64,000 bases of DNA from Phycisphaerae bacterium (GTDB taxonomy: Bacteria > Planctomycetota > Phycisphaerae > Sedimentisphaerales > Anaerohalosphaeraceae). Below are positions 7,061 to 34,593 of the stretch, piece by piece. The DNA lies in NCBI GenBank assembly GCA_029858345.1, contig JAOUFG010000001.1:41916-105915 (forward strand). The letters are read 5' to 3'. The notes under the pieces are model-generated. The model made no database searches. It saw only the letters and a list, made by a program, of their open reading frames with translations, and was not told the DNA's origin. Position numbers and translations under genes: made by a program. Within the stretch, counting starts at the first letter, position 1. Each line of letters begins with the position of its first letter.

Positions 7061-7270
7061 CAAGGAAAAAACGGGGATTTTCTGCCCAATAACACAGTTT
7101 GAAAAGGTTTATAATATCCCGATTATGTTCAGATGTCAGATTTTCACACATCCACGGGACACCGCGAAACAGGAAATGAAAGCTCCCCCGAAAATTGAAA
7201 AAATGTAAGGGCCTATCCTAATAACCGGGACGTGATGGGACCAAGCGAAAAGTCCGAGGCCAAGGCGGCA

Positions 7271-7324
7271 GGGCCAAAATCGCCGCAGGCGTAGCCAAAG
7301 CCACGTTGAGGGTGCTTTTGGCCC
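7271..7324. other. Inverted-repeat element upstream of the TPR operon promoter
   Basis: Perfect 9-bp arms GGGCCAAAA (7271-7279) / TTTTGGCCC (7316-7324) within a GC-rich tract. Confidence 0.6.
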
Positions 7325-7417
7325 GACAACGCATGCATTTTTCGACATTTTTAAGGGGTAATTTTACAAATTTTTGATTTTTGATATTTTAAACAGGCCA
7401 TCGGTCTGTTTGAGTGA

Positions 7418-7792: not shown

Positions 7793-7864
7793 AGTGAGAT
7801 AGCGTCATCCCCACTCTCATAAGGCCGGAAAACATCTGCTTCCGTGCGCCTCTTCAGAGACTTG

Positions 7865-7907
7865 ACAGAAGACAGTTACCGCCTTATTGACCGCAACTGT
7901 CTTCTGT
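7865..7907. other. Long stem-loop in flagellin 1 - fliS 1 gap
   Basis: Perfect 13-bp inverted repeat ACAGAAGACAGTT / AACTGTCTTCTGT, 17-nt loop. Confidence 0.85.
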
Positions 7908-7934
7908 TCATTTGTTCATCCCTGTCTTTACTGC

Positions 7935-8744: not shown

Positions 8745-9175
8745 ACGCTGTGTCTCCTAAAAAAATAATGTTTTGAGTCCCCTGTCAGGGTCCTTTCTGC
8801 CAACAATCCGTTTTGACTACCTAACAAAACCTGTCTCCACGGGTTCACATGAAACTATTATCGAGGCAATTAAACAGGGGCTTAAGGCAATTAAAGCGGC
8901 TTAAAACGACGCTTTCATCAAGGACCGATAGTGAATGGGATAATGTTGGTAGTATCTGAAAACAACGAGGCAAAAAAAATTACCCGCTTTCCCAAAAAAA
9001 AACAGCTCTTTGGTAAGAGATAAAAAATGATGAATTTAGGGGTTATGCAGGATATGTGTCACCGTGTCAGCCAATCAATATTCCGCACCGTTTTATTATC
9101 GGGTGAGACAAGCAAAAAAGGGAAATGAACGACAATACTCCGGATATTCTGCGGATGAGTGAAGAAAGTTGTAAT

Positions 9176-9574
9176 CTACAGAGCCCGGCTCTTTGGCAAG
9201 CGGGTACTTTGAGTGTGTCGGGTAATTTCTTCCCATCCTTGTCTTAAGTTATCCAGAATGGCAATTATTTCTTTAAGCATCCGCGTATCGTTTTTAATAT
9301 TCGCATCCCCCAAATACCGCCAGATGAAATTGTAAAGGGACCGCAGATTCTGAGCGACGCTTCCACCCCGGTCAAGATCCAGTGTGCTGTTCAACTCGAA
9401 GATGATATTCCGCGCGCGGCCAATGTTCCGATTTCTGCCGGCAATATCCTCCTGACCAATGCATTGGCCGGCCTTTTTTAGAAAACAGATCGCTCCATCG
9501 TATAATAGTACGATCAATCCTCCTTTTGTTTGCGTTGTTACAGCCGTTTCCTGATAGGCGATTGCAGCATTCAT
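9176..9574 (-). CDS. fliS: Flagellar export chaperone FliS (copy 2)
   Basis: YQETAVTTQTKGGLIVLLYDGAICFLKKA...ELNSTLDLDRGGSVAQNLRSLYNFIWRYL. Confidence 0.92.
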   Translation of the reverse strand: MNAAIAYQETAVTTQTKGGLIVLLYDGAICFLKKAGQCIGQEDIAGRNRNIGRARNIIFELNSTLDLDRGGSVAQNLRSLYNFIWRYLGDANIKNDTRMLKEIIAILDNLRQGWEEITRHTQSTRLPKSRAL

Positions 9575-9640
9575 CCCGGAACTCCAGATTGTTAATCCCT
9601 ACTTTCAATTGATTCAAGAAGATGCCGGAAGGACAGGGCC

Positions 9641-9697
9641 CTTACCATTGGGGTGGCTGGCTATTACCATTACCAGACCACCCCGTATTATGGTAAG
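9641..9697. other. Long stem-loop in flagellin 2 - fliS 2 gap
   Basis: CTTACCAT...GGGGTGG.CTGG / CCAGACCACCCC...ATGGTAAG nested inverted repeats. Confidence 0.8.
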
Positions 9698-9709
9698 AAG
9701 TCTAAGATG

Positions 9710-10522
9710 TCATGCTCGTAAGAGGGTTAGTGCCATTTGAGGCATAGCATTGGCCTGTCCTAACATCGCAACGCCGGCCTGCGAAAGCACCTGGTTACGC
9801 GTCATGGCAGCCATTTCAGTCGCAACATCAACATCCGAAATGCGTGATTCAGCAGCCATCATATTTTCTGCCTGGATATTCAACACCTCATTGGTGCTTT
9901 CAAGACGGTTCATCATATAACCCAAGCTGGCCCGTGCGCTGTCCTTGAGTTGGATCGCGGTATCGACCAGACCCAGGGCAATCGCGGCATTTGCCGCCGT
10001 ACTGACAGTAGCACTGTCAAGACCCAGTGCCGAAGTCTGAACATCAACAGAGTTTACTGTGATGGATGATCCGACGCCAAAGTGAACACTAATGTTACCG
10101 GAAGCACTGTTGAGCATGTTGACGCTGTTAAAGCTTGACGTCGATGCAATACGATTGATCTCGGCGACCATCTGTGTGAATTCGTTGTTCATAATGTTTC
10201 GCTGCTGATCAGAATAAGACCCCGTCGCGGCCTGTTCGGCCAACTCGGCCAATCGAATCAGGATCGAGTCGATCGACCCCATAGCACCTTCCATGGTCTG
10301 AAGCATACTGATCGCATCCTGCGCGTTTCGCGAACCCTGCTGTGTCACAGCAACATCCGCCCGCATCAACTCGCGAACGGCCAGACCCGCAGCGTCATCC
10401 TTGGCGCTGTTAATCCTTAAACCGGAAGATAGCCGCTCTACCGATATAGCTAATGCATCGTAACTTCTCCCGAGATGCCTGGCAGCATTCTCGGCCATAA
10501 TGTTGTTCTTAATCGCTAACAT
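9710..10522 (-). CDS. fliC: Flagellin (copy 2, 270 aa)
   Basis: Highly similar to the 7935-8744 product along its whole length. Confidence 0.95.
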   Translation of the reverse strand: MLAIKNNIMAENAARHLGRSYDALAISVERLSSGLRINSAKDDAAGLAVRELMRADVAVTQQGSRNAQDAISMLQTMEGAMGSIDSILIRLAELAEQAATGSYSDQQRNIMNNEFTQMVAEINRIASTSSFNSVNMLNSASGNISVHFGVGSSITVNSVDVQTSALGLDSATVSTAANAAIALGLVDTAIQLKDSARASLGYMMNRLESTNEVLNIQAENMMAAESRISDVDVATEMAAMTRNQVLSQAGVAMLGQANAMPQMALTLLRA

Positions 10523-10813
10523 AATACAGTCTCCTTACCACAATTTACCATGATCCATTTTTTAACCGCTTATTTCGACCTGCTTTGGCAACCCGATAAA
10601 AACGGTGTTTTTCTTATCGGTTCTAACTCCATTATCGGAACACTTCAGGATCTCTTAAGTTATTTATCCGGACGAAGAAAAAAAGATGAAAATGCCCGTC
10701 TGACGCATCTCATTCAGCTTTTTTATCGGATCCAGAAAAGGACGCATTTAAGGTAACTCAAAAAAACACTGTCTGTCGTCCTGACAGAACATGTTAATAA
10801 TATCACTCCCAAC

Positions 10814-10900
10814 AAAAAACTGCGCTTGATACGCGGTTATGTAGTTTCACGGCAGCACTTTAGAGTTCAGCCCGCGGAAATTTATTACCCCAAAGGGTAT
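10814..10900. repeat. 87-bp dispersed repeat, type 1 copy a, ending TACCCCAAAGGGTAT
   Basis: Gapless alignment with 13168-13254; shared AAAAAACTGCGCT, TTTAGAG and CGCGGAAATTTATTACCC blocks. Confidence 0.85.
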
Positions 10901-11040
10901 AATATGCAGAAAATGAGTGTCCTTAAGGAGGGTGTTGGTCTCTTGCGTTCGAGGTCGCAACTCAGAGATTATGCGATACCGAGATTGATAGACACGGGGA
11001 TTGAATTGAATATCGGACCTGCACAGGCAAGGCGGTTGTT

Positions 11041-11355
11041 TTAGATACCAAACAAAAGAAGGTTTTCCGCCGCGGCTTCAATGGCTTCAGGTGTATCGAG
11101 CCGGCCTTCGGCGATCGCTTGCCTGGCCTGTTGGATCTTTTCAGAACGATCCACCTGATACTGCTCAAGAGAGCGATGAATAACCGAAGCTAATTCATGA
11201 CCCAGCTCATTGACAACCGCATCCATAGGAGCGATTTTTCGCTGCTGATTTTCCTGCGACAACTTTGTCGTATAAGCATTTGCTAAATTGTCCGATGGCT
11301 GAATCTGCATCATTGCTTTCTGATAAACAGAATCTATTTCAAACCTCAACATCAT
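11041..11355 (-). CDS. flgM: Probable anti-sigma28 factor FlgM
   Basis: FlgM-type C-terminus (DRSEKIQQARQAIAEGRLDTPEAIEAAAENLL); downstream of fliK. ORF extends to 11424; internal Met with upstream AGGAA preferred. Confidence 0.68.
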   Translation of the reverse strand: MMLRFEIDSVYQKAMMQIQPSDNLANAYTTKLSQENQQRKIAPMDAVVNELGHELASVIHRSLEQYQVDRSEKIQQARQAIAEGRLDTPEAIEAAAENLLLFGI

Positions 11356-11491
11356 TCTCGTCTGTTCCTGCCTGTTCTTAAGATAAAAATCAAAAAAGTT
11401 TCTCTTTTTTATAAAATTGAGCAATTTTTCCTAAAGTTTTTATCGTCATCAGCCGATTGATGGGCATTTTTCCATCGTCCTATAAGATATC

Positions 11492-13123
11492 TCAGATAAA
11501 CATATTTAAGCCATCCTCAGTAATACCGACATCATATATCCGACTTTCCCGGCCGGAAATATCTTCGAATTGTGACGATCTTGGGCCGCGTCCAAAAGAG
11601 CGGGGATTCCCGAACATCTCGGACTCGGACGAATGCGTCGACGATTCATCACGAAATTGGTCTGCCCCTGAATAATCCGGCCCATTGGCGGCCTCGTCCT
11701 CTATTATTCCGTCCCGGCCGGGATCCCACCGGACAATTTCAATTCTCCGCACTTGGACGCCGCTGTTTTGCATCGCCGAAATCAGTTGAGGAAGGGCCTG
11801 TTCAACCTCTCGGCGCGTCTGGTTTTTCTGAACTTCAAGAAGTCCAACAACCTCATCCTCTGTCCGGTTAAATGTAATGCGAACGGTCCCCAAATGTTCG
11901 GGGGTCAGTGTCAACTGGATTCGTTGCTGCGGACCGGACACACTGACCGAGCTTAAGTGCTGCAGTATCTGATCAATCGGCTTTGTTGTTTCCGCCTGTG
12001 GAACAACGGCATGAACCCCGGTACGGGCAGGGGCTTCCAATGCGGCAGGAGAGGCGTTTTCTGACGGGTCAGCGCTATGCAGCATGGATTGCACATTCCG
12101 TATTTCAAACCCTTTCGGAACCCCGTCGTGCTCGCCGGAGACAGGTGCCGCTTCAAGTGGAACCGTTTTGGACTCCTTAATGTCGTGTGTTTTCTCTTGA
12201 GATGGCCCCGCTGCTGTCGGGGTGTCTGATTGCAACTGGAAATCCCGCTGTTGTTCACCTCGAGGGCCCTGAACAGGAACAACAGCGCCAGGATGAATCG
12301 GTTTGTCCCGATTCACCTGATCCGATTGCGGAGTTTCTGACTCCGGGGTGCTGCTAAGCGGTTTTCGCGTCTGCGTCATCGCCTCCGGTGACGGGGGCTG
12401 CTTGCCCTCTGTATCATTATTATCCTGGGCCGCCGCCATATTTTCTGTCGTAGCCGGTTTCGGGATATGGGCCTGTTTTTCATCCACAGACACCTCTTTC
12501 CCGCCGGTGCTGCTCGCAGAGGCCGATTTTTCCTGACCTTCACTTTTCTGCGATTCCGGTAAAGGAACCGCCGCCCCCTGCGCCTGAGCAAGCGGCTGGG
12601 TGTTCGGCTGACTTTGAGAGGTCTCAGTTTCACCAACGACGCCTGCAATCGAAGCCGGAGGATTGCCCGCTTCGACAACAACACCCGTAATGGGAGCCGT
12701 TTGCGGGCTATCCGCATTTTCCGATGGATTGCTTATTTCGGCGACCGCATATTCAAATACGATCTGTTCATCCGTGTTCTCAAGTAGATTATTTTCAGAG
12801 ACGAGAACTGAAGAGTTTGTCTGTTCAGTCAGATTTTCTTCAACCGGTTCCGCCGCATCCGTCTTCTGCTGAGGACACTCATCGAGCGTTTGTTCGCATT
12901 GTCCGTCTATCTTCCGCGACAGAACCTTATCAAAATCGTCGCGCGCCCCTTCTTTTTTCTGGACAGACCGGCTCGGCTTTTCGGCGATCTCACCGTCTGT
13001 CATTAAATCAGCCCGGTTCGGCCGCGATTGACGCATTAAACCCTGAGATTCAAGGTTTCTGCCTGTTTCATGAGCCAAATTAACCGGCCCTAACATGTGT
13101 GCAAGCGAAGTTGCTTCCGGCAT
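11492..13123 (-). CDS. fliK: Flagellar hook-length control protein FliK
   Basis: Low-complexity P/Q/E-rich N-terminus and FliK C-terminal core (RIQLTLTPEHLGTVRITFNRTEDEVVGLLEVQKNQTRREVEQALPQLISAMQNSGVQV). Confidence 0.88.
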   Translation of the reverse strand: MPEATSLAHMLGPVNLAHETGRNLESQGLMRQSRPNRADLMTDGEIAEKPSRSVQKKEGARDDFDKVLSRKIDGQCEQTLDECPQQKTDAAEPVEENLTEQTNSSVLVSENNLLENTDEQIVFEYAVAEISNPSENADSPQTAPITGVVVEAGNPPASIAGVVGETETSQSQPNTQPLAQAQGAAVPLPESQKSEGQEKSASASSTGGKEVSVDEKQAHIPKPATTENMAAAQDNNDTEGKQPPSPEAMTQTRKPLSSTPESETPQSDQVNRDKPIHPGAVVPVQGPRGEQQRDFQLQSDTPTAAGPSQEKTHDIKESKTVPLEAAPVSGEHDGVPKGFEIRNVQSMLHSADPSENASPAALEAPARTGVHAVVPQAETTKPIDQILQHLSSVSVSGPQQRIQLTLTPEHLGTVRITFNRTEDEVVGLLEVQKNQTRREVEQALPQLISAMQNSGVQVRRIEIVRWDPGRDGIIEDEAANGPDYSGADQFRDESSTHSSESEMFGNPRSFGRGPRSSQFEDISGRESRIYDVGITEDGLNMFI

Positions 13124-13167
13124 ATCCTGTAAACTCCTATATATAATATTTATATACCAGCTCTACT

Positions 13168-13254
13168 AAAAAACTGCGCTCCCTGCGCAGCTATGTCTCT
13201 ATTTCAAAAGCCTTTAGAGCCGTCCTCGCGGAAATTTATTACCCTAAAGGGTAT
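13168..13254. repeat. 87-bp dispersed repeat, type 1 copy b, ending TACCCTAAAGGGTAT
   Basis: See copy a. Confidence 0.85.
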
Positions 13255-13285
13255 TATTCTTAATCTATAGTACCCAATTGAATGT

Positions 13286-13301
13286 AGCAAAAAATATGCC
13301 A
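13286..13301 (-). promoter_or_regulatory. Sigma54 promoter TGGCATATTTTTTGCT upstream of fliK-flgM
   Basis: -24/-12 consensus and spacing; about 165 bp upstream of fliK start. Confidence 0.82.
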
Positions 13302-13627
13302 TCCCTGCCCCCGCCTTTTCCACAAAGACTGTAACCTCATATTCATAATATAGTTATAAAATTAGCCGGCATTTTTCAGCCGCTCGTTCTTTTGGGGAAA
13401 TCTCACTTTTCATACGTACTTTTCCGGAAAAAATATCCGTTTGAGGGCTATATTTCGCGGATTTTGAGTAATCCTAATGATTTTTTAGTTTTTTAGACAC
13501 CTTTGGAGGGTCTGTCAAAAAAACAAACGTATTGAAAGACTTCTTTATTCTTCACTGTATGCCGCCAAAACCAAAAAAACACTGTTTTTGAATTAGAAAT
13601 CCGGTTTACATCGCCATTACACTATTT

Positions 13628-13643
13628 TGGCATAATTCTTGCT
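13628..13643 (+). promoter_or_regulatory. Sigma54 promoter TGGCATAATTCTTGCT upstream of flgB operon
   Basis: -24/-12 consensus and spacing; about 35 bp upstream of the flgB ORF. Confidence 0.85.
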
Positions 13644-13678
13644 GTCTTGAGGGAGTGTAGCTTTATCTAATCCGAACA

Positions 13679-14053
13679 ATGATTGGAGAAATAATCGTGA
13701 TTCATGATTCGACTGTGATGGACCTTCTGACCGCGGGAATGAGAGCCGAATCCCTGCGGCAGCAGACCATTGCAAATAATATCGCCAATATCAACACAGA
13801 CGGTTTTCGCCGGTCGGAAATCGACTTTGAAGAAGTTCTGGCAAAAGCGCTGGACAAACAGGGGCCGTTTGATCCGGACACCCTAAAACCCGAGATTTTT
13901 CAGCCCGAAGACACCCCTATCAACGAATTTGGAAGTGATGTGGGGCTGGATCACGAAGTCGGGGAAATGGCCAAAAACTCCCTGCGGCACAGGGCCTATA
14001 TGCTGGTTTTGAAAAAGAAATATCAGCAAATGGACGAGGCCATGAAGTTCTAA
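13679..14053 (+). CDS. flgB: Flagellar basal-body rod protein FlgB
   Basis: RQQTIANNIANINTDGFRRSEIDFEEVL; followed by flgC and fliE. Confidence 0.93.
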   Translation: MIGEIIVIHDSTVMDLLTAGMRAESLRQQTIANNIANINTDGFRRSEIDFEEVLAKALDKQGPFDPDTLKPEIFQPEDTPINEFGSDVGLDHEVGEMAKNSLRHRAYMLVLKKKYQQMDEAMKF

Positions 14054-14076
14054 ATTTATAGAAAGAACCCAAAACC

Positions 14077-14484
14077 ATGAAAGTTGACCCTAACTCATTC
14101 AGTACGATTGACATCGCGACGTCGGGCCTGCGTGCCTATGACCGTCAGATGAAGTTGATTGGTTCGAATATGGCTAACATTCAAACCACTGACGCCGGCA
14201 ATGGAGAGCCATACCGTCGGCTGATTGCTGAATTTGAGACGAATACCGATGATGGCGGCGGCGTTGACATCAAAGATATTGTCCAGGACCAAAGCCCGTT
14301 TCAGAAAGTATTCAACCCCGGTCATCCTGACGCAGATGAAGACGGCTATGTGTCCATGCCAAATGTAAATTGGGCATCTGAAATGGTCAATCTGAATGCG
14401 GCCAGCCGGGCATATCAGGCCAATGCGGCCATCTTGAGGCGTTATCAGAAAATGGTTGAAAGCAGTTTAGAGTTGTTAAGATAA
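14077..14484 (+). CDS. flgC: Flagellar basal-body rod protein FlgC
   Basis: IATSGLRAYDRQMKLIGSNMANIQTT...YVSMPNVNWASEMVNLNAASRAYQANAAIL. Confidence 0.95.
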   Translation: MKVDPNSFSTIDIATSGLRAYDRQMKLIGSNMANIQTTDAGNGEPYRRLIAEFETNTDDGGGVDIKDIVQDQSPFQKVFNPGHPDADEDGYVSMPNVNWASEMVNLNAASRAYQANAAILRRYQKMVESSLELLR

Positions 14485-14500
14485 AGACAGGAAGTCAAAA

Positions 14501-14815
14501 ATGTCCGTACAATTTAATCCCGCTATTGCAAATCTACAACAAACAGAGGCCCTTCGTCCCTCATTGCAAACCGTTCACGCACCACAGGGGACGAAGGTTG
14601 ATTTTGGAAACGCCGTCCAACAGTCCCTTGACAAGGTCAATGAGAAACAGGGACAAGCCAACCAGTCCATCGTCGACCTGCTCAGCGGCCGACAGCAGGA
14701 TATTAATTCAGTTGTGGCGGATGTGGCCAAGGCGGACATGAGCTTTAAGATGCTCGTGGGCGTTCGAAATAAACTCGTCGAAGCATACAAGGAAACGATG
14801 CGGATGCAAATCTGA
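14501..14815 (+). CDS. fliE: Flagellar hook-basal body protein FliE
   Basis: DVAKADMSFKMLVGVRNKLVEAYKETMRMQI C-terminus; position between flgC and fliF. Confidence 0.92.
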   Translation: MSVQFNPAIANLQQTEALRPSLQTVHAPQGTKVDFGNAVQQSLDKVNEKQGQANQSIVDLLSGRQQDINSVVADVAKADMSFKMLVGVRNKLVEAYKETMRMQI

Positions 14816-14866
14816 TACTTCGGCAGCAATAAGGGTATTGTGACTTAACAGATAGGTGGTATAGCA

Positions 14867-16426
14867 CTGTTTCAGCAGATAAATACAATTTGGAATAAGA
14901 TCGGTCTGGTTCAAAAGGCCTTGCTGGCGGCCATCGTCATCGCATGTGTACTGACCGGAACACTCCTGACCAAGTGGGCTACCCGGCCGGACATGCGGCT
15001 TTTGTTTGGAAATCTGAGCATCGAAGAAAGCGCCAAGATCACCGAAAAGATCAGCGAGAAAGATGTTCCTTATGAAATCCGCGGCAACGGTTCCAGTATT
15101 TACGCCCCCGCCGATCAAATCCATACCTTACGCGCGGCCCTGGCACGCGACGGCCTGATGCCCCGCAGCGGTGAGCCGGGCTATGAGATTTTTGACAACG
15201 AGAAACTCGGCGTCAGTCCGGTGGTTCAGAAAATGAACTATAACCGGGCCATCCAGGGGGAACTGGCCCGCACGATCCAGGTGTTTGAAGGTGTTGAATT
15301 CGCACGCGTCCACATCGTTCGCCCTGAACAGACGATGTTTGTTTCAGAAGGCGAATCGGCGACCGCCTCGGTCATGCTCCGCCTTAAACCCGGTTACCAA
15401 CTCAGCGCCGGTACCGTCACCGCGATTTCAAATCTGGTCGCCGGCGCCATTGAAGGCCTTCAGTCCGAACACGTAACCGTCACGGACAGCAACGGCCGGA
15501 TGTTGAGTTCACAAACACCGGACAACGGTTTGGTAGCCGGGGCCAATAATTATAAAGACTACAAATCCAGCGTCGAACAGGAAATGACCGGCAACATCTT
15601 ACGGTCGCTGGAGGCCGTCCTGGGATCTGGCCGGGCAACCGTCATCGCTCAGGCCACGCTTGACATGACCCAGGAAACCGTCGTTAAAACAACCTACGAA
15701 AAAGGGATTCCGGTCGAGGAATCAAGCGAGACAATAAAAAACGTCCAACCTGCTTCAGTGGATGCGGACGGCAATGAAACTCAGCCGGGCAATACGGAAT
15801 CAACCGAGACAACAACGACGAGCAATAAAATCCCGGAAACCACAACAACAACCGCCACGGTCCCCGGAAAAGTAACCGCCTGGTCCGTGGCTGTGATCGT
15901 CGATCTGGCCAAAGAAAAAGTCGCTGCAGCCGAGGGTGCAGAGTCCGATGGTCAGGCGGCCGCCGCTGAAGCGGGCCAGCCGGAACTGATTATGACAGTG
16001 GAGGATGTAAAAGAGATTGTCCGGGTTGCTGTTGGGCCCGATTTGATCGCTGATAACAATCTAAGCGTCAAACATGTGGAGTTTAACCGGCCGCAGGCGG
16101 TCCTCTTTAACGATGAACCCACCACATTTGAAAAGCTGGCTCCCTTCGCAGAGATTGCACGTCAGTCTTCGATGGGCATTTTTGCGATTTGCGGATTGCT
16201 CGTTTTGAAAATCTTCACCCATGCCGGGAAACAAGCAGCCGTCTCAATCTCGCAAGCAAGCGCCTCCAACTCGCCGCATGCCCTTTCGCTCTCCGGCAAC
16301 CCGATGTTGACCGGCAGCAGCAACGAAACCATGGCAACGGTGCGCAACCAGATTAACTACCAGCTGCGTGAAAACCCCGAGCAAATCCGCCAACTCTTTT
16401 CATCATGGCTTTCAGAGGACGCCTAG
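14867..16426 (+). CDS. fliF: Flagellar M-ring protein FliF
   Basis: FliF features (RGNGSSIYAPADQIHTLRAALARDGL...FDNEKLGVSPVVQKMNYNRAIQGELARTIQ). No ATG/GTG start between the upstream stop and 14921; CTG at 14867 proposed, track uses TTG at 14921. Confidence 0.9.
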   Translation: MFQQINTIWNKIGLVQKALLAAIVIACVLTGTLLTKWATRPDMRLLFGNLSIEESAKITEKISEKDVPYEIRGNGSSIYAPADQIHTLRAALARDGLMPRSGEPGYEIFDNEKLGVSPVVQKMNYNRAIQGELARTIQVFEGVEFARVHIVRPEQTMFVSEGESATASVMLRLKPGYQLSAGTVTAISNLVAGAIEGLQSEHVTVTDSNGRMLSSQTPDNGLVAGANNYKDYKSSVEQEMTGNILRSLEAVLGSGRATVIAQATLDMTQETVVKTTYEKGIPVEESSETIKNVQPASVDADGNETQPGNTESTETTTTSNKIPETTTTTATVPGKVTAWSVAVIVDLAKEKVAAAEGAESDGQAAAAEAGQPELIMTVEDVKEIVRVAVGPDLIADNNLSVKHVEFNRPQAVLFNDEPTTFEKLAPFAEIARQSSMGIFAICGLLVLKIFTHAGKQAAVSISQASASNSPHALSLSGNPMLTGSSNETMATVRNQINYQLRENPEQIRQLFSSWLSEDA

Positions 16427-16429
16427 CCC

Positions 16430-17446
16430 ATGACGTTAACAGGTATTCAAAAAGCGGCTTTGTTGCTGACGACGCTCGATGCATCCACCGCAATGGGACT
16501 CCTGAAGGGCCAATCGCAGAAAGTCATCCAGAAAATTGCTATGGAACTGTCCCAACTGGACCTCAAAGGGAAGGTGGACGCCGAGCAGGCTTCTGAGGTT
16601 GCGCAACAGTTTTATGTTGAGCTAACCCAACCGAAAAGCGAAGGATTGCATATTAAGCGTTTTGTAAGCTCCCTGCTGCAGGATACCGCAGGCAAGGAGA
16701 AAGCAACTGAACTGCAAAACAAAATGCAGCAGGCCGTGATCCAGCGTGATCCCTATGTCATCATTTCAGATGCGCCGGCGTTCCACCTGGCATCCATCCT
16801 CCAGAATGAATCGCCCCAGACGATTGCCATCGTTTTATCGGAAATTCCGCCTAAACTTGGCACAGAGGTGTTGTGTTACTTTGATGAGCCGAAAGCCCAG
16901 ATGGCTGTCTGGCGGATGACTCAATTAACAACCGTTTCCCGGCAAACCGTGATCCGGGTTGGTGAGATGGTTCATAAAAACCTCATTGAAATGCAGTCTC
17001 AGCAGGTCAGCACGAAACCGAAAGAAGAGACCGCCACCGCAAACCTCAGGCAAATCGCATTAGTTCTTGGCGGCATGAAAAAGGAAAAACGCGACGCTCT
17101 TTTGGAAACGATTGAGGGCAAAGACGATGTGGCTGCCAACATCGTTCGGGCACTGATGGTAACCTGGGAGGATATCCCGAAAATTGAAGATAAATGTCTG
17201 CAGGGAATTCTGCGAAAGATAGAAGTCAAGATCCTGGCCAAGGCACTGCATGGTGCCGATGCGGTCGTCGCCGAGAAGATCTACGGGAATATCTCCGAAC
17301 GCATGAAAGAGATGATCGAAGAAGAGGTCTCTCTCATGGGCAGCCCAAGGAAAAAGGACATTGCAGAGGCCCGCGAGGAAGTCGTCCGTCCGATGCACGA
17401 AGCTAACAAAGCCGGGGAATTGCTCTTTATTGAAGAGGAGGATTAA
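16430..17446 (+). CDS. fliG: Flagellar motor switch protein FliG
   Basis: ESPQTIAIVLSEIPPKLG...; C-terminal IYGNISERMKEMIEEEVSLMG. Confidence 0.92.
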   Translation: MTLTGIQKAALLLTTLDASTAMGLLKGQSQKVIQKIAMELSQLDLKGKVDAEQASEVAQQFYVELTQPKSEGLHIKRFVSSLLQDTAGKEKATELQNKMQQAVIQRDPYVIISDAPAFHLASILQNESPQTIAIVLSEIPPKLGTEVLCYFDEPKAQMAVWRMTQLTTVSRQTVIRVGEMVHKNLIEMQSQQVSTKPKEETATANLRQIALVLGGMKKEKRDALLETIEGKDDVAANIVRALMVTWEDIPKIEDKCLQGILRKIEVKILAKALHGADAVVAEKIYGNISERMKEMIEEEVSLMGSPRKKDIAEAREEVVRPMHEANKAGELLFIEEED

Positions 17447-17453
17447 AGAGGTT

Positions 17454-18020
17454 ATGGCCGCGATGAGTTTACAACTGAATATGCCGATTCAATCCGCCCG
17501 GATCATCCAAGAAAACACCGAACAGGACACGGACCCGGCAGCCCCCGCGGCAGAGACGCAGACCCGCGACACACAAGAAATGGATAGACTGTGCAATATC
17601 CTCCAGCAGGCCGCCGAAAAGCTTGAACGATACACCGAAGAACTGCTTCTTTCCCATAAGGAACAGATCGTGCGTCTCAGTATTGAAATTGCGTCTAAGA
17701 TTCTCGCCAAAGACAGAAACGAACAAAATTACGATATTGAAAAGATCGTCTTACAAGCATTACAGAAAGTGCCCGCATCCAAACAGGTTACGATTCGATT
17801 GAATCCGAATGACTTAAAAACGATGCAGCAACTGACCGACGCCAACCGGTTCACGACACCCGAAGGCGTTCGCTTTACCGACGATGCCTCGGTCGGCACT
17901 GCGGAATGTATTATCGAAACAGACCACGGCGTGATCGACTATCTGATTGAAGAACACCTCAAACAGGTCGCTGGCGCCCTTTTACAAACAAAAGACACCG
18001 TAACGAAAGAAGAGAAATGA
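17454..18020 (+). CDS. fliH: Flagellar assembly protein FliH
   Basis: FliH pattern (LLLSHKEQIVRLSIEIASKILAKDRNEQNYDIEKIVLQALQKVPASKQVTIRLNPNDL); between fliG and fliI. Confidence 0.85.
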   Translation: MAAMSLQLNMPIQSARIIQENTEQDTDPAAPAAETQTRDTQEMDRLCNILQQAAEKLERYTEELLLSHKEQIVRLSIEIASKILAKDRNEQNYDIEKIVLQALQKVPASKQVTIRLNPNDLKTMQQLTDANRFTTPEGVRFTDDASVGTAECIIETDHGVIDYLIEEHLKQVAGALLQTKDTVTKEEK

Positions 18021-19417
18021 CACTCTCATTAGACAACTCGCTTTCGGTGGACTTTGAACAGTTCCACTCGACATTGAACAGCGTCGACCTTGCCCCCCTC
18101 AAGGGCGCGGTGGTGCATGTCTCAGGATTGACCATTGAAAGCAGCGGCCCGCCGGATGTCGGGCTGGGACAACTGTGTCAAATTCGGATTCGCAATCAGC
18201 AGCACATCCAGGCCGAAGTCATTGGATTTCGTCCCGGCGGATTGATTCTGCTGCCCTTGGATTCCATCGAAGGAATCCGGCCCGGCGACGCGGTCACCGC
18301 ATTGAACCAATCACGTACCATCGCCCTGCATAAAAGCATTGTGGGCCGTGTATTAGATGGGCTTGGCCGCCCGATCGACGGCAAAGGCCCGCTGCAAGCC
18401 GCCGAACACCGGCCGATTGACAATATCAGCCCGCCGCCGCTGAGCCGTAAAATGATCCGCCAGCCCTTGCCCCTTGGTATTCGCGCCATTGACAGTGTTT
18501 TAACCTGCGGCAAGGGACAGCGTATCGGCGTGTTTTCCGGAAGCGGCGTCGGCAAAAGTGTACTTCTCGGCGAGATCGCCAATGGCAGCGAGGCGGATAT
18601 CAATATCGTAGCGCTGGTCGGTGAACGCGGCAGAGAGGTACGGGAGTTTCTCGAAAAAGACTTAGGTCCCGAAGGACTGGCACGAAGTGTCGTAGTCGTC
18701 GCCGCCTCGGACGCCGCCGCTACGCAGCGAGTGAAAGCCGGGGCCGTAGCCGCCACGATTGCCGAATACTTTCGGGACCAGGGCTGCGATGTCCTGTTTA
18801 TGATGGATTCGCTGACACGGCTTGCCCAGGCCCATCGTGAAATCGGACTGGCCGCCGGTGAACCGCCGGCCACCAAAGGATATTGCTCCAGCACGTTCGC
18901 AATGCTGCCGAAACTGGTCGAACGACTTGGCTGCAGTGAGCATGGCAGCATCACCGGTATCCTCACGGTGTTGGCCGAGGGCGATGACCTGAATGACCCG
19001 GTGGCTGATTGCGCCCGCTCCCTGCTGGATGGTCACATTGTGTTGAGCCGTAAGCTGGCTGATCGCGGCCATTACCCCGCAATCGACATCCTTCAAAGCA
19101 TCAGCCGTCTGATGAATACCGTGACCGATACCGAGCATCAAATGGGTGCCCGCAAACTCCGCGAAATCTATGCCACGTATACTGACGCCGAAGACCTCAT
19201 CAATATCGGGGCGTTTTCGCCGGGAGCCAATAAGCGGATCGACGGCTCGGTCGCGCTGATTAACCGGATTCAGGACTTCCTGATTCAGCCCGTCCGGCAG
19301 CTTAGCCCCTTTGACCAGACCGTCAAGCAGTTGCTGTCGATTACGCAGGCATGGGATCAGATGCTGGGAACAGGAAAGCCGCAGCAGAACACCGGTCCGA
19401 AAAGGATTTCAAAATAA
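18017..19417 (+). CDS. fliI: Flagellum-specific ATPase FliI
   Basis: Walker A FSGSGVGKSVLLGEIA, ATPase signature, FliI/SctN length. Confidence 0.96.
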   Translation: MTLSLDNSLSVDFEQFHSTLNSVDLAPLKGAVVHVSGLTIESSGPPDVGLGQLCQIRIRNQQHIQAEVIGFRPGGLILLPLDSIEGIRPGDAVTALNQSRTIALHKSIVGRVLDGLGRPIDGKGPLQAAEHRPIDNISPPPLSRKMIRQPLPLGIRAIDSVLTCGKGQRIGVFSGSGVGKSVLLGEIANGSEADINIVALVGERGREVREFLEKDLGPEGLARSVVVVAASDAAATQRVKAGAVAATIAEYFRDQGCDVLFMMDSLTRLAQAHREIGLAAGEPPATKGYCSSTFAMLPKLVERLGCSEHGSITGILTVLAEGDDLNDPVADCARSLLDGHIVLSRKLADRGHYPAIDILQSISRLMNTVTDTEHQMGARKLREIYATYTDAEDLINIGAFSPGANKRIDGSVALINRIQDFLIQPVRQLSPFDQTVKQLLSITQAWDQMLGTGKPQQNTGPKRISK

Positions 19418-26599: not shown

Positions 26600-27367
26600 A
26601 TGAAAATGGATAAACAGATCAGTATCATGCCCTGCCTTGACATGCAAAATGGCCGGGTCGTTAAAGGGGTTCATTTTGTCGACATTCGTGATGCGGGCGA
26701 TCCCGTGGAGTGCGCGAAGGCCTATTGCGCCGCTGGTGCCGACGAGCTGGCGCTTCTGGATATCACCGCAACCGTTGAAAACCGGCCCACGATGCTCGAG
26801 GTGGTCAGCAATGTCGCTGAGGTTACGACCATTCCCTTTACTGTCGGAGGGGGCATTTCTGATGTCGCTTCGGCAGCAGCGGTTTTAAACGCAGGAGCCG
26901 ACAAGATATCAACCAGCAGCGCCGCCTTTCGCAAGCCCGAGATCATCAAAGACATGGTCGCCGAATTCGGCCCGGAAAAGGTGACCGTGGCGATTGATGT
27001 GGATGTGAATGAATCAATGCCGTCCGGCTATGAAGTCTATATTGACGGCGGCCGAACACCGACGGGGGCTGATGCCATCGAGTGGGCCAAAAAAGTCGAT
27101 GGCTTTGGGATTCCGGTCATACTGCCAACCAGCAAGGCCGGAGATGGCGCCCGGACGGGATACGATCTTCCCGTGATCAGGGCGATGGCCGCTGCCTGTT
27201 CGGCCCGGATCGTCGCCTCAGGAGGCGCCGGAAAAATGGAAGATTTCTATGACGCGGTGCAGGCCGGGGCAACAATTCTGCTCGCCGCATCCGTCTTTCA
27301 TTTCCACATGATTGATATACCCCAGTTAAAAAACTACCTGCGGGATAAGGGCTTAAACGTCAAGTAA
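26600..27367 (+). CDS. hisF: HisF-like imidazole glycerol phosphate synthase cyclase subunit
   Basis: PCLDMQNGRVVKG, LLDITAT, GGGI, VAIDVDVNES, DGARTGYD, ASGGAGKMEDF, AASVFHF; no hisH nearby. Confidence 0.85.
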   Translation: MKMDKQISIMPCLDMQNGRVVKGVHFVDIRDAGDPVECAKAYCAAGADELALLDITATVENRPTMLEVVSNVAEVTTIPFTVGGGISDVASAAAVLNAGADKISTSSAAFRKPEIIKDMVAEFGPEKVTVAIDVDVNESMPSGYEVYIDGGRTPTGADAIEWAKKVDGFGIPVILPTSKAGDGARTGYDLPVIRAMAAACSARIVASGGAGKMEDFYDAVQAGATILLAASVFHFHMIDIPQLKNYLRDKGLNVK

Positions 27368-27500
27368 AGCATTCGCGTCACGAATTAACAAAGCCGTGAC
27401 AGTGACGGCCTGTCCTGCCGGCCGGTCCGCCATAGCTGGCTTCTGCGTAGCTTTATGCGAAGCAAAATAACGAAGAAGGAAGCTCACAGAGCGAAACAGA

Positions 27501-27612
27501 ATAACTGCTAACTGCTAACTGATAACTGATAACTGCTAACTGCTAACTGATAACTGATAACTGCTAACTGCTAACTGCTAACTGATAACTGATAACTGCT
27601 AACTGATAACTG
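27501..27612. repeat. Heptanucleotide tandem array 1: 16 units of (A/C)TAACTG
   Basis: Read directly: exactly 16 contiguous 7-mers, only position 1 varies. Confidence 0.97.
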
Positions 27613-27818
27613 TCTATCCCATTAATCATTATTCATTTCAAAGCCCCTTCCAATCTCAAAGCCCCATCGGGGCGAAAGAAAAAATCCGCGTGGGCATGGT
27701 CCACCCTACAAGACTGGGGCCGAACACTATTGTGTCTGACCCCTTTTAGTTTTCCTTTCCCCTGTGCTTCCCGCCTCGCAACCCGCAGCACACCATTCTG
27801 AACACCTGCCTTTTAATC

Positions 27819-27930
27819 TACGAACTACGAACTACGAACCACGAACCACGAACCACGAACCACGAACTACGAACTACGAACCACGAACTGCGAACCACGA
27901 ACTATGAACTATGAACTATGAACTACGAAC
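27819..27930. repeat. Heptanucleotide tandem array 2: 16 units of (T/C)ACGAAC with TATGAAC/TGCGAAC variants
   Basis: Read directly: 16 contiguous 7-mers over 112 bp. Confidence 0.97.
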
Positions 27931-28014
27931 TAAAAGAAACCTTGCCAAAATGGATGTACTGCGGTTAGAGCACTTTAATCTTTTCTGTTCGCATTTAGGC
28001 CGTCGTGAGGACAA

Positions 28015-28342: not shown

Positions 28343-28510
28343 TAAATGTTAAATCCCGGCGGGGATGGTAGTGTCGACTGGGGTCTGTCGCAAATGAGAC
28401 CCCCGGCCAAGCAAGTGAAGGTCGAACAAAAGGTGTAGGGATCGCGGAAATATCACCCGCATCCCCCGTGGCAAGCCACGTTAAAGATAAAACAAATAAA
28501 CTGTCACCAC

Positions 28511-28633
28511 AAAAAGGGTACATCCGTCTTCGCTCTTCGAGCTACTCCGGACAGGGGTACAACCCGGCTGTCGGCAGAATCCCGATTTATCGGGACAGGC
28601 CGTACCGGTCCCCCTTTTGCTCATGACGATGGC
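28511..28633 (+). repeat. 123-bp direct repeat, copy A
   Basis: Near identical (3 mismatches seen) to 31263-31385; contains CCCGATTTATCGGG hairpin. Confidence 0.95.
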
Positions 28634-28752: not shown

Positions 28753-29685
28753 ATGGACTACAAGGCATTTATCGAGGAGCAGGTTAATGAACTCAAAGAA
28801 ACCGTCGGCGATGCGACGGCGATCAATGCATTGAGCGGCGGGGTTGACAGTTCCGTTGTGACCGTATTGGCACACCGGGCGTTGGGCCGGCAGCTCAAAA
28901 CGTACTTTATTGACAGCGCATTAATGCGTCAAGGCGAACCGCAGCGGGTTGTCGATATGTTCGCCAAGATGGGAATTCCGGTGGGCCTGGTTGACGCGAA
29001 GGCCGAATTCCTGGCCGCCCTTAAGGGATTGACCGATCCGGAGGAAAAACGTCACGCCGTGACCGATACCTTTTACGCCAGGGTGTTCGGCAGGCTGGTC
29101 AAAGAGACCGACGCTACATTTCTGCTTCACGGGACAATATTGACTGATATTGAAGAAACCGTGGCCGGAATCAAGCGTCAGCATAATATTCTTGAGCAGC
29201 TCGGCATTGATCCGAAAGAGGCGTACGGCTACGCGGTCCTTGAGCCCTTGAAAACGCTTCGCAAAGACGGTGTTCGCGAGGTGGCAAGGGTTTTAAATCT
29301 GCCGCCTGATATCACCGAACGGATACCCTTTCCGGGACCCGCACTGGCGGCCAGAATTGTGGGAGAGGTGACCGAGGAGCGGCTGAAAACCGTGCGGTCG
29401 GCTACCGCTATTGTGGAAGAGGAACTGGGCAACAGCGGAGCGTTTCAATACCTGGCCGTTTTGCTGAACGATAAGGCGACGGGAATCCGCGACGGGAAAC
29501 GGCAGTTCGGTGAGATTGTTGTGGTGCGGTGTATTGAAAGCACGGATGCCCGCACGGCGACCGTTACGGAGCTGCCGTGGACGAAACTGCACCGGCTTTG
29601 TGAACGCATTACGCAGATCGACGGCGTCAACCGCTGCCTCTATGATTTAACGCCGAAACCTCCGGCAACCGTTGAATATATCTGA
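28753..29685 (+). CDS. Stand-alone GMP synthase-type ATP-pyrophosphatase (GuaA C-terminal half, no GATase domain)
   Basis: PP-loop LSGGVDSS; GTILTDIEET; FPGPALAARIVGEVTEE; C-terminus YDLTPKPPATVEYI (cf. KPPATIEWE of GuaA). Confidence 0.85.
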   Translation: MDYKAFIEEQVNELKETVGDATAINALSGGVDSSVVTVLAHRALGRQLKTYFIDSALMRQGEPQRVVDMFAKMGIPVGLVDAKAEFLAALKGLTDPEEKRHAVTDTFYARVFGRLVKETDATFLLHGTILTDIEETVAGIKRQHNILEQLGIDPKEAYGYAVLEPLKTLRKDGVREVARVLNLPPDITERIPFPGPALAARIVGEVTEERLKTVRSATAIVEEELGNSGAFQYLAVLLNDKATGIRDGKRQFGEIVVVRCIESTDARTATVTELPWTKLHRLCERITQIDGVNRCLYDLTPKPPATVEYI

Positions 29686-30029: not shown

Positions 30030-31160
30030 ATGTCTGAGAAGAAACAGGATTTGGCGGGCCCGGGGATCGGGGATTACAACGAACTGGAAAAGATACTTCC
30101 GGCCGATTACACGTCGGCGCTGACACCCAAAGAAACACAGATTGCGACGTATGCGGTCAAGGACTACATCGAGGAGCACATGTGCAGGGAGCTGAACCTG
30201 ATACGGGTGACGGTACCGTTGATCGTGGACATAGAAAGCGGGGTCAATGACATGTTGGACCGGGACGGGTCGCGGACGCCGATACAGTTTCATATCAGCA
30301 ACGACCATGACAAGCACCCGGTCGATGCGCAGGTTGTGCAGGCGGCGACGAAGTGGAAACGGATGGCGCTGAAGCAATTTGGGATGCAGGTCGGAGAGGG
30401 GCTTTTGACGGATATGCGGGCGGTGCGGAAAGATTATTTCCTGGACCATGACCACAGCGCGTACGTGGACCAGTGGGACTGGGAGCTGGCGATTACAAAG
30501 GAGCAGCGGAACCTGGGATTTTTGAAGGAAGTTGTACAGAAGCTGTGGAAGGTGCTGAAGGGGGCGGAGCGGCACGTGCAGGGACTGTTCCCTCAGTTGA
30601 AGACGGACTCGTACCCGGACCTGCCGGAAGAACTGACGTTTATTCATGCGGAGGATATTTTGGCGAAGTTTCCCGACCTGCCGCGGAAGCAACGGGAGAC
30701 GGCGATTTTGCAGGAGTATCCGGCGGTCTTTATCTACGGGATCGGCTGGGTGCTGGAGGACGGGTATCCGCATGAGATGCGGGCGGCCGATTATGATGAC
30801 TGGGTGACGGAGACGACGAGCGAGGACGGACGGCCAATGCACGGGCTCAACGGTGATATTCTGGTGTGGAACCCGGTGACAAAACGGCGGCATGAACTGA
30901 CGTCGATGGGGATTCGGGTGACATCGGAGACGCTGCGGCAGCAGCTTGAGATTAGCGGGCAACTTGACTTTTTGAAGCTGCCGTATCATCAGGCGATCGT
31001 CAATAATGAGATCCCGCTGAGTATTGGTGGGGGGATTGGGCAATCGCGGACGTTTATGACAATTTTAAAGAAGGCTCATATTGGAGAGGTCAGTGCGACG
31101 GTGTGGCCAAAGGTGCTCAAGGACATGTGCAGGAAGAAGAATATCCATGTGATCGAATAA
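30030..31160 (+). CDS. asnA: Aspartate--ammonia ligase (asparagine synthetase A)
   Basis: AsnA blocks: KWKRMALKQFGMQVGEGLLTDMRAVR, SAYVDQWDWE, DYDDW, HGLNGDILVWNPV, ELTSMGIRV, SIGGGIGQSR. Confidence 0.95.
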   Translation: MSEKKQDLAGPGIGDYNELEKILPADYTSALTPKETQIATYAVKDYIEEHMCRELNLIRVTVPLIVDIESGVNDMLDRDGSRTPIQFHISNDHDKHPVDAQVVQAATKWKRMALKQFGMQVGEGLLTDMRAVRKDYFLDHDHSAYVDQWDWELAITKEQRNLGFLKEVVQKLWKVLKGAERHVQGLFPQLKTDSYPDLPEELTFIHAEDILAKFPDLPRKQRETAILQEYPAVFIYGIGWVLEDGYPHEMRAADYDDWVTETTSEDGRPMHGLNGDILVWNPVTKRRHELTSMGIRVTSETLRQQLEISGQLDFLKLPYHQAIVNNEIPLSIGGGIGQSRTFMTILKKAHIGEVSATVWPKVLKDMCRKKNIHVIE

Positions 31161-31262
31161 GTCGGATGGTGATTTTGTTTTTACTGTTTTTTCTGGTTTG
31201 AAGCATGGCGAGGTTGCCTTTTTGGCAGAGTACCTCGAGGAAAAACTAGAAAACTTAGGCGC

Positions 31263-31385
31263 AAAAAGAGTACATCCGTCTTCGCTCTTCGAGCTACGCC
31301 GGACAGGGGTACAACCCAGCTGTCGGCAGAATCCCGATTTATCGGGACAGGCCGTACCGGTCCCCCTTTTGCTCATGACGATGGC
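31263..31385 (+). repeat. 123-bp direct repeat, copy B
   Basis: Near identical to 28511-28633. Confidence 0.95.
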
Positions 31386-31402: not shown

Positions 31403-32902
31403 TTACCACAATTGCTTTTGGCCGGCGGGTTCTTCTTTGTGCTTGCGGGTTCCTGAGGACACGATTTCCTTAATCCTGAATTTTGATTTTTTTCTGCAGG
31501 TCCCGGGACACTCGCCGGTCCAGCAATACAGACACAGTTTTTCTCTCGGCAGGCCGACGGCCTCAACCATGTCCTCAACCGTTTGATAGCGCAGGGTCGT
31601 TACGCCGATATCCTGCGCGATCCATTCAATCATACGTTTGTATTTTGCGGAACGGTGATCGATGTATTCAGAAACATCCTCCAGGTCGTGACCCTCAAGA
31701 CTGCGAATCGCTTTTCGCGCCGCCAGTTCATGAATCGAGCGGGTGGACAGGTTGAATCGGCACGGGAACATCAGCGGCGGACAGGCCGGTCTGACATGAA
31801 TCTGCTTGGCGCCGCAATCCCACAGTTTCTTGATCGTGAAGTTCTTCAACTGCGTCCCCCTCACGATGGAATCCTCGCACACGACAATGCTGTTGTCTTT
31901 GATGACCTCTTTGACGGGGATCAGCTTCATTTTTGCGATATGGTCGCGCGTCTGCTGAGACGGCGGCGTATAGCTCCTGCCGTATCCCGGCGTATATTTG
32001 ACAAGCGGCCTTCGGAACGGCTTGTTGGAGGCCATGGCATACCCCAGACCGTGAGCAAGCCCCGAATCCGGGATCCCGGAAACGACGTCGACCTCGATAT
32101 CCGCGTCGTGCCTGGCCAGCGCCCGGCCGCATTTTTCCCTGACGATCTCGGCGTTGACGCCTTCATAGTTCGATGCGGGAAAGCCCGTATAAATCCACAG
32201 GAACGTGCAAATCTGATTCGTTCTGGGGGTGCCCGGTTTTCGCTGCACGACACCGTCTTCGTTGATGAGAACGATTTCTCCCGGATCCAGATATTTCACG
32301 ATTTCAAATCCAATGTTATGAAAGGCGGCTGTCTCGCTGGTGACCGCCCAGGCGTCATCTTTTTTTCCAATCACCAGCGGGGTATAGCCAAAACGGTCCC
32401 TGGCGGCAAAGATGCCCGTTCGATTTAACAGCAGCAACGAGCATGAACCGTCGATCATATCAAACACTTTCTCGATGCCGTGCACCAGGTCCGTTCCCTG
32501 GTTGATGAGTTTGGCAACGAGCTCGGTTGTGTTCACAATGTGTTTGCCGACTTCACTGAACGAGATCCCTTTTTTCAGCAGGGTCGCGACCAGCGCTTCG
32601 TTGTTTTCGATAATGCCGTTGGTGGCCAGGCAGAAAGGCCCGAATTTCGAATTGAGATAGATCGGCTGCTCATCCAGGGCGCTGATGACGCCGATTCCTT
32701 TGTTGCCCCGCATGCGTTGATAATCATCGAAGAATTTCGACTTGAACTGACTTTGACTGAGCGCGTGAATTTGACGTGTAAACTCGGTTCCCAGAACAGC
32801 CATGCCGCCGTATTCCGTGCCCAGATGCGAGTGATAGTCGGTGCCGTACAGCAGGGTTTCGGCACAGTCGTTCTTTGACACAATTCCAAAAATACCGCTC
32901 AT
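31403..32902 (-). CDS. PurF-like amidophosphoribosyltransferase with substituted glutaminase site
   Basis: PRPP motif VVCEDSIVRGTQLKN, SFC-like C-terminal Cys cluster (EKLCLYCWTGECPGTC), N-terminus MSGIFGIV in place of MCGIFGI; RBS AGGAGG. Confidence 0.88.
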   Translation of the reverse strand: MSGIFGIVSKNDCAETLLYGTDYHSHLGTEYGGMAVLGTEFTRQIHALSQSQFKSKFFDDYQRMRGNKGIGVISALDEQPIYLNSKFGPFCLATNGIIENNEALVATLLKKGISFSEVGKHIVNTTELVAKLINQGTDLVHGIEKVFDMIDGSCSLLLLNRTGIFAARDRFGYTPLVIGKKDDAWAVTSETAAFHNIGFEIVKYLDPGEIVLINEDGVVQRKPGTPRTNQICTFLWIYTGFPASNYEGVNAEIVREKCGRALARHDADIEVDVVSGIPDSGLAHGLGYAMASNKPFRRPLVKYTPGYGRSYTPPSQQTRDHIAKMKLIPVKEVIKDNSIVVCEDSIVRGTQLKNFTIKKLWDCGAKQIHVRPACPPLMFPCRFNLSTRSIHELAARKAIRSLEGHDLEDVSEYIDHRSAKYKRMIEWIAQDIGVTTLRYQTVEDMVEAVGLPREKLCLYCWTGECPGTCRKKSKFRIKEIVSSGTRKHKEEPAGQKQLW

Positions 32903-33132: not shown

Positions 33133-34593
33133 ATGAACAGACAGATACCAACCAATCCAGGTGCTCCGGTGCTGTCCCGGCCGGAGGCGGTTTTTATCGC
33201 CGCGGCGGTGACGCTGCTGGTCGGGCTGCTGACGGGGGTCCATGAGAATCTGCTCGATATCCTGTGGGTGTGTGCGTTTTGCCTGGCCGGAGCGGCGACG
33301 CTGATCTGTGTCGCCGCGAAAAACTCCGTCGATCTGGTCGGGTTTGTGCCGATCGTCTGGGTGCTGACGCTGCTGCGGATTGCGCTGCAGGCAATGACCG
33401 CCCGTAAAATCATCGGACACCACTCAACCGGAATCCTGATCGGCTCCGTCGGCAAGGTCCTGACGACACCGGCGCCGCTGGGAGCGGTCCTGACGGGGTT
33501 GGCGTTGGTCGCAGTGCTGGCCATCCTTATCTTCGGGGCGTGTCAGCGTATGACGAGCGCCGCCAACAGCTATATCCGGCAGGTTCTGCCCCTAAAACGG
33601 ATCGGCATCGAAACCGATCTTCGGATGGGGCTGATCGATGAAAGCAACGCCCAAACACTGGCCCGAAAAATCGCGACGGAAGTTCGCTTTTTTTTCGGGA
33701 TGACCGGCGTCAGCATGTTGATGCGCGGCGAAGCGGCCATTTCTGTTTTCACCCTGCTGGGGTGCCTGGTCACGTTAGCATCGGGGAATTCTTTTGAAAC
33801 CATCTCCCGGGAAGGGCTGCTTGGGCCGGTCATGGCATTCGGGGCCTTTTCACTGGTTCCTGCGGTGATCGTAGCTGTTTCCTGCGGCGGCCTGATGAGC
33901 AAGGAAACACTGGCACTGACGCCCGAAGAGGCCGGGCAGGAACCGGTGGCAACGAAGAAAATCACGCTCATCAGCCAGGAAACCGGGGACGCCGAGGAGA
34001 TCGAGCTGCTGAACCCGGACTTTGTGAACCATGCAGGGGTCGATGAACGGATCGTTGAGTTTGAGCCGCCGCGTGAAGCGGCCGCCGCAACCGCATTCCC
34101 GGCGTGCGGCAGTCCGGCGGAATACTATAAACAACTCGGGCACATGATCACCGCGGTGAAAACCCAGCCCCGCGCGGCCGTGCTCGGTTCCAAAGACATT
34201 CGTTCGCTGCCGGTGACCGTGGCGGTGAATATCGCAATCGGTCTGGCCCAGCAAAAACAGAAAGTGCTTATGGTGGATACGGACACGACGCGAAATGCGA
34301 TGGCACAGGTCTTTGAACTCGATCCGGTATTGATGCAGAAAAAGATACAATCCAGCTGCCTGGAAAATCTTTCGGCATGCAGCGTTGGAATCGATAAGAT
34401 TGACCTGCTGCTGAAAAAGAAAAAGATCACCGAGCGCTTTGATACGCTGCTGATTTATGCCCCGGAGGCCGATGCGGCTTGCCTGACTGAAAAAGCAGGC
34501 GGTTCGTGGGAGGTCTTTTTCTTCGGCGATGCGGCCCCGGCCCAAAGCGGGGGCATGCATGTCATCCCGCAGATTCAATCGATTCTAAAGTGA
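33133..34593 (+). CDS. Chimeric protein: FlhA/FHIPEP-like membrane domain fused to degenerate BY-kinase/MinD-like P-loop domain
   Basis: QRMTSAANSYIRQVLPLKRIGIETDLRMGLIDESNA aligns with the FHIPEP signature region of FlhA; C-terminal AEYYKQLGHMITAVKTQPRAAVLGSKDIRSLPVTVAVNIAIGLAQQKQKVLMVDTD resembles BY-kinase/CpsD without the GKS/T. Confidence 0.72.
   Translation: MNRQIPTNPGAPVLSRPEAVFIAAAVTLLVGLLTGVHENLLDILWVCAFCLAGAATLICVAAKNSVDLVGFVPIVWVLTLLRIALQAMTARKIIGHHSTGILIGSVGKVLTTPAPLGAVLTGLALVAVLAILIFGACQRMTSAANSYIRQVLPLKRIGIETDLRMGLIDESNAQTLARKIATEVRFFFGMTGVSMLMRGEAAISVFTLLGCLVTLASGNSFETISREGLLGPVMAFGAFSLVPAVIVAVSCGGLMSKETLALTPEEAGQEPVATKKITLISQETGDAEEIELLNPDFVNHAGVDERIVEFEPPREAAAATAFPACGSPAEYYKQLGHMITAVKTQPRAAVLGSKDIRSLPVTVAVNIAIGLAQQKQKVLMVDTDTTRNAMAQVFELDPVLMQKKIQSSCLENLSACSVGIDKIDLLLKKKKITERFDTLLIYAPEADAACLTEKAGGSWEVFFFGDAAPAQSGGMHVIPQIQSILK

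Follow-up and report, generated by a model that had tools for sequence, protein, structure and literature searches.

Purine synthesis normally depends on glutamine for its first step. Cys-less paralogues of PurF in Crenarchaeota (PurF') were put forward in 2011, as a proposal only, as ammonia-dependent PRPP aminotransferases (Brown et al., PMC3261824). Replacement of Cys1 of E. coli PurF by Ala or Ser was described to abolish the activity with glutamine while that with ammonia was kept (Mei and Zalkin, 1989, as cited in PMC3261824). The PurF homologue considered here, which together with its clade is called PurFx, is encoded in the window, the whole stretch of 64,000 nucleotides that was analysed. 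Compared by description, it is like crenarchaeal PurF' a Cys-less paralogue beside purF or other purine genes, and it shows what defines the archaeal type: absence of Cys1, similarity to PurF over the whole length and proximity to purine genes (PMC3261824). However, PurFx forms a bacterial clade, its first position is mostly Ser where the archaeal proteins often have Ala or Val, and in one subclade it apparently takes the place of PurF, which PurF' accompanies (PMC3261824). By analogy, crenarchaeal PurF' is the closest precedent and PurFx is best regarded as a variant of this already proposed type of Cys-less PurF. With the E. coli Cys1 mutants, as far as they are cited in the same paper, PurFx shares a dead glutaminase; the ammonia-dependent synthase that is alive in the mutants would be active in PurFx as well. 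Whereas the mutants carry a single laboratory substitution, in PurFx a whole clade has naturally lost four or more residues of the glutamine site. No description of a bacterial Cys-less PurF family was found in openly licensed papers, and the PurFx family is apparently undescribed.

PurFx lacks the glutaminase site and retains the PRPP loop of PurF

The gene and its domains are positioned in the window as follows.

31403..32902, minus strand: purFx, PurF homologue with a dead glutaminase domain, 499 aa (ORF, TIGR01134 profile, phmmer, alignment)
32219..32902, minus strand: former Ntn glutaminase domain, residues 1-228 (alignment, family conservation, dN/dS)
31511..32218, minus strand: phosphoribosyltransferase domain, residues 229-464 (alignment, phmmer)
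31850..31885, minus strand: PRPP loop VVCEDSIVRGTQ, residues 340-351 (alignment)

The minus-strand ORF starts with ATG, and plus-strand frame 1 over 31403-32902 is interrupted by stops. By phmmer, residues 3-395 aligned with B. subtilis PurF (1ao0) with an E-value of 1e-54. The NCBIfam purF profile TIGR01134 gave 207.4 bits, which is below the equivalog cut-off of 350. An AF2 model (mean pLDDT 81) had 1ao0 as the best PDB match of its predicted fold, with a TM-score of 0.83 normalised by target.

The preliminary description of this DNA had reported a protein starting with MSGIFGIVS, with Ser for Cys1, and changes in three further glutamine-site blocks. Alignment confirmed these losses. Relative to E. 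coli PurF, Cys1 is replaced by Ser, Arg26 by Leu (HRGQ to HLGT) and Asp127 by Thr (SSDTE to VNTTE). The RYxTxG block, described as replaced, has indeed lost its glutamine-binding Arg73, but through an 8-residue deletion that removes the loop and not through a replacement. Arg73 and Asp127 are glutamine-binding residues of PurF. An alternative upstream start that would restore the Cys was rejected, because the in-frame stretch immediately preceding the ATG (KRALFQPTISSGGIT) shows none. The NG motif and the PRPP loop persist, as had been stated: Asn101, the oxyanion-hole position of the PurF glutaminase, is present with Gly102 in the window copy, and the loop reads EDSIVRGTQ. Four Fe-S ligand positions (C232, C381, C457 and C460) were found in the transferase domain, and the former glutaminase domain contains the conserved GTDYHSHLGTEYGG. 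As the residues lost are those required for glutamine hydrolysis and the loop kept is the PRPP-binding one, PurFx has a dead glutaminase half and a retained transferase half.

With PurF of the B. subtilis type (1gph, 1ao0) PurFx thus has in common the overall fold, the PRPP loop, the purine-operon context and, in most members, the four Fe-S cysteines. It differs in the absence of Cys1, Arg26, the Arg73 loop and Asp127, in its score below the TIGR01134 cut-off and in about 29 extra residues after residue 395. Of the marks of a glutamine-dependent PurF (EC 2.4.2.14), the fold and the loop [DE]DSIVRGT are present in PurFx; Cys1, Arg73/Asp127 and the TIGR01134 score are not. Consequently, these proteins would be misannotated as 'amidophosphoribosyltransferase (glutamine)'.

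PurFx is a clade shared by several phyla

A scan of GTDB species genomes revealed 27 relatives of about 45-87% identity, from Planctomycetota, Krumholzibacteriota, Omnitrophota, Latescibacterota (a partial copy) and Prevotellaceae. Whole-genome searches detected PurFx in 10 of 40 genomes comprising the window's own and its near relatives. It was present in 7 of the 156 sampled Planctomycetota (the window's own genome included), in 2/118 Bacteroidota genomes and, among the matches listed, in at least 32 of 146 from Omnitrophota. A maximum-likelihood tree of 75 proteins showed PurFx as a single clade with 100/100 support and a long stem branch, separate from the canonical PurFs of the genomes that hold it and of related ones, and with members from Planctomycetota, Omnitrophota, Krumholzibacteriota and Bacteroidota. 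The preliminary description had presented the protein as one odd paralogue and had called for a phylogeny; judged by the tree and the alignments, PurFx is instead a conserved multi-phylum bacterial family and no isolated degenerate copy.

The sister of the clade is a protein of genome G064 (locus L109) in which Cys1 and Arg26 persist but the Arg73 loop and Asp127 are already gone. It stands on a long branch and its position in the tree is uncertain in detail; its residues make it likely to represent a step on the way to PurFx. A separate PurF homologue outside the clade, with Ser for Cys1 and Leu for Arg73, was encountered in genome G069 (L093, 3699-5057), where it stands between glmS and hisF. 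Canonical PurF was not found in the G069 genome.

The former glutaminase domain is under purifying selection

Sixty members were aligned. Position 1 is Ser in 53, Gly in four, Asp in two, Ala in one and Cys in none. Leu replaces Arg26, the Arg73 loop is missing and Asp127 is lost in all 60, and Asn101 is retained by only 20. The PRPP loop [DE]DSIVRGTQ is present in 60/60. All six residues C, R, R, N, G and D are kept by the canonical PurFs of PurFx-bearing and related genomes (23/23). Chance or an assembly error behind the losses was ruled out, as the pattern is common to 60 members. The combination proposed in the preliminary description, a phosphoribosyltransferase that is kept and a glutaminase that is dead, is well supported by the family-wide loss of Cys1, Arg26, Arg73 and Asp127, the invariant PRPP loop and the occurrence in purine operons. 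Most members have the four Fe-S cysteines; the copies of L021, L022 and L023 lack three of them at once. Clade-specific substitutions are found near the active site, with TGFPAS where canonical PurF has FARPDS and Gln for T374 in all members. These conserved replacements could reflect an altered specificity.

Between the window copy and its two nearest relatives dN/dS was 0.04-0.07 for the former glutaminase domain and 0.05-0.07 for the transferase domain, values that are rough at a dS of 1.0-1.4. The mean identity of the Ntn domain in six genomes with both proteins was 80% for PurFx versus 82% for PurF. On these measures the dead domain is not decaying and is under strong purifying selection, a constraint which suggests more than passive scaffolding.

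purFx occurs in purine operons, in part apparently as the sole purF

The Omnitrophota locus L023 shows the operon purB-purL-purFx-purM-purD-purE, in which purFx begins two bases after the end of purL and is directly followed by the start of purM. The same operon with an additional TIGR00730 (LOG-type) gene was found in L073, L078 and L085 of the same phylum, in L073 and L085 also with purQ. At five Phycisphaerae loci from the GTDB scan purF, purM and purFx follow each other in a row. A purine gene lies within 9 kb of purFx in 20/58 loci, a figure affected by short flanks at many loci and by double counting of a few genomes. No gene is a constant neighbour across the family. A DUF1846 gene is near purFx in eight loci (L021, L022, L024, L030, L081, L086, L096 and L097). 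DUF1846/UPF0371 repeatedly adjoins PurF-like, CarB and HisF genes, namely in these eight loci and in L109 and L093; it has no assigned pathway and is essential in C. difficile (PMC12548448). The TIGR00730 gene, of the LOG-type nucleotide phosphoribohydrolase family, is near purFx in six loci of two phyla (L004, L005, L073, L078, L085 and L100).

Canonical PurF is present throughout the sampled Phycisphaerae with PurFx. It was not found in G057, G055, G056, G144 and G103, all of them MAGs. These genomes supply five of the seven proteins in the Omnitrophota subclade that holds L023, L073 and L078; the remaining two genomes, G162 and G107, each have it. As far as MAGs allow, PurFx is thus likely to be the sole PurF in this subclade. 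The stronger statement that a complete genome has PurFx as its only PurF was dropped for CP070684.1 (G057, L116-L179), because this entry, titled 'chromosome', is actually a scaffold interrupted by 62 gaps, each of 100 N, in which PyrG and GlmS were not found either. PurL is present in CP070684.1, and PurQ and PurS were not detected there. Three further candidates for PurFx-only genomes were rejected: G075 and G166 carry fragments of canonical PurF, and the Cys-less PurF of G069 is the different, separate one.

PurFx is probably an ammonia-dependent PRPP aminotransferase

The residue pattern, the ammonia activity of the E. coli Cys1 mutants and the operon context are most simply accounted for if PurFx is a glutamine-independent, ammonia-using PRPP aminotransferase, a reading to which we assign a probability of about 0.6. 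Its C-terminal phosphoribosyltransferase domain would convert PRPP and free ammonia to 5-phosphoribosylamine (PRA), the first purine step, and the N-terminal Ntn domain would have lost glutamine hydrolysis and been kept as a structural or regulatory domain. Phycisphaerae, including that of the window, would possess in PurFx an alternative pathway entry alongside glutamine-dependent PurF; in the one Omnitrophota subclade PurFx, whose gene occupies the position of purF among the purine genes of the operon, appears to have taken the step over. The lost glutaminase site, the intact PRPP loop, monophyly, purifying selection and the operon position are seen in the sequences themselves; the use of ammonia, PRA as the product and a functional link to neighbouring ammonia-using enzymes are what we infer. 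The single clade, the low dN/dS, the five genomes in which PurFx but no canonical PurF was found and the GATase-less guaA near purFx also favour this reading. The presence of canonical PurF in Phycisphaerae counts against it, and PurFx may act otherwise there; so do the MAG status of the genomes in which canonical PurF was not found, the constraint on the Ntn domain and the conserved replacements TGFPAS and Gln for T374. That a family conserved across several phyla lacks the glutaminase site yet holds the place of purF in operons suggests that natural purine synthesis can begin with ammonia; the family also lends itself to a direct test of the 2011 proposal for archaea.

Given the strong purifying selection on the Ntn domain, the old pocket may serve a new purpose other than catalysis, and such constraint would be expected if the domain were a docking site through which ammonia is supplied in trans, by a separate glutaminase or by the DUF1846/UPF0371 or TIGR00730 LOG-type neighbours. 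The recurrence of these two genes beside purFx, in eight and six loci, fits such a partner. Neither protein, though, is known as a glutaminase, no neighbour is constant across the family and free ammonia is simpler, which makes a partner-fed enzyme unlikely. The possibility that the pocket was re-tasked as an Ntn hydrolase with a Ser nucleophile, raised in the preliminary description because Ser acts as an Ntn nucleophile in other families, agrees with the Ser of 53/60 members but is extremely improbable because position 1 varies. A Ser-type enzyme would have an invariant Ser1 and an oxyanion-hole Asn; PurFx has Gly, Asp or Ala at position 1 in the other seven, of which the Gly and Ala members largely refute the idea, Asn101 is variable and all glutamine-binding residues are gone.

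The substitutions near the active site (TGFPAS and Gln for T374) and the long stem branch would agree with a phosphoribosyltransferase of changed acceptor that serves a side pathway instead of purine synthesis, but the position of purFx between purL and purM in purine operons renders this distinctly unlikely. A role of PurFx as a regulatory pseudo-subunit without catalysis, which would associate with canonical PurF and adjust its activity, would suit the coexistence of both in all sampled Phycisphaerae positives and the purF-purM-purFx order of the five loci; it is nevertheless very unlikely, in view of the PRPP loop invariant in 60/60 and of the five genomes of one subclade in which PurFx and no PurF was found.

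Other amination genes near purFx

Three further amination genes and a direct repeat are located close to purFx in the window.

26600..27367, plus strand: hisF2, orphan HisF without hisH (profile)
28753..29685, plus strand: guaAC, ATP-PPase part only of GMP synthetase, without GATase domain (profile; paralogue of the full-length guaA at C140)
30030..31160, plus strand: asnA, ammonia-dependent asparagine synthetase (TIGR00669, 303.7 bits, cut-off 292.8)
28510..28633, no strand: 124-nt direct repeat, left copy (98% identical to the right copy)
31262..31385, no strand: 124-nt direct repeat, right copy (98% identical to the left copy)

Since the genome also holds canonical purF (C90), hisF beside hisH (C145) and the full-length guaA, purFx, hisF2, guaAC and asnA are all versions without a working glutaminase. 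The repeat encloses the guaAC-asnA pair, and guaA and asnA are not shown beside purFx in the nearest relatives' loci (L004 and L005); the pair may therefore have been inserted. GATase-less guaA is near purFx in the window, L009 (an incomplete match), L074 (in the order PurFx-carB-guaA) and L087, and near the sister in L109. Among relatives, hisF2 co-occurs with PurFx in 8/10 positives versus 7/20 negatives and guaAC in 4/10 versus 4/20. An obligate gene set was rejected on the basis of this weak co-occurrence.

The L109 cluster (5002-18698, G064) runs on one strand as DUF1846, hisF, GATase-less guaA, glutamate dehydrogenase, purF, carA, carB, purL and nagB, where profiles identified hisF, guaA, glutamate dehydrogenase, purF and nagB, and similarity the remaining genes. 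As class I GATases, only one of the PabA/TrpG type and CarA were found in G064; HisH and a GuaA GATase were not seen in this MAG, an absence that is provisional. It is conceivable, though doubtful, that PurFx is part of a wider glutamine-independent amination programme, in which nucleotide synthesis would run on free ammonia and the old pocket would be remodelled for another ligand or partner. Its members would, equally tentatively, be PurFx, the GATase-less GMP synthetase, orphan HisF and AsnA, and in Omnitrophota also CarB, glutamate dehydrogenase, NagB and DUF1846.

The 1.4-kb non-coding stretch between hisF2 and guaAC contains two arrays of 7-nt units (27473-27950), of the TAACTGC/TAACTGA and GAACTAC/GAACCAC types. 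An RNA family search gave no match and a tRNA search none. An ORF at 33133-34593 (plus strand) encodes an FlhA/FHIPEP-like N-terminal membrane part, the FlhA profile matching its first part only, and a C-terminal part with a weak match to AAA_31 (ParA/MinD-like).
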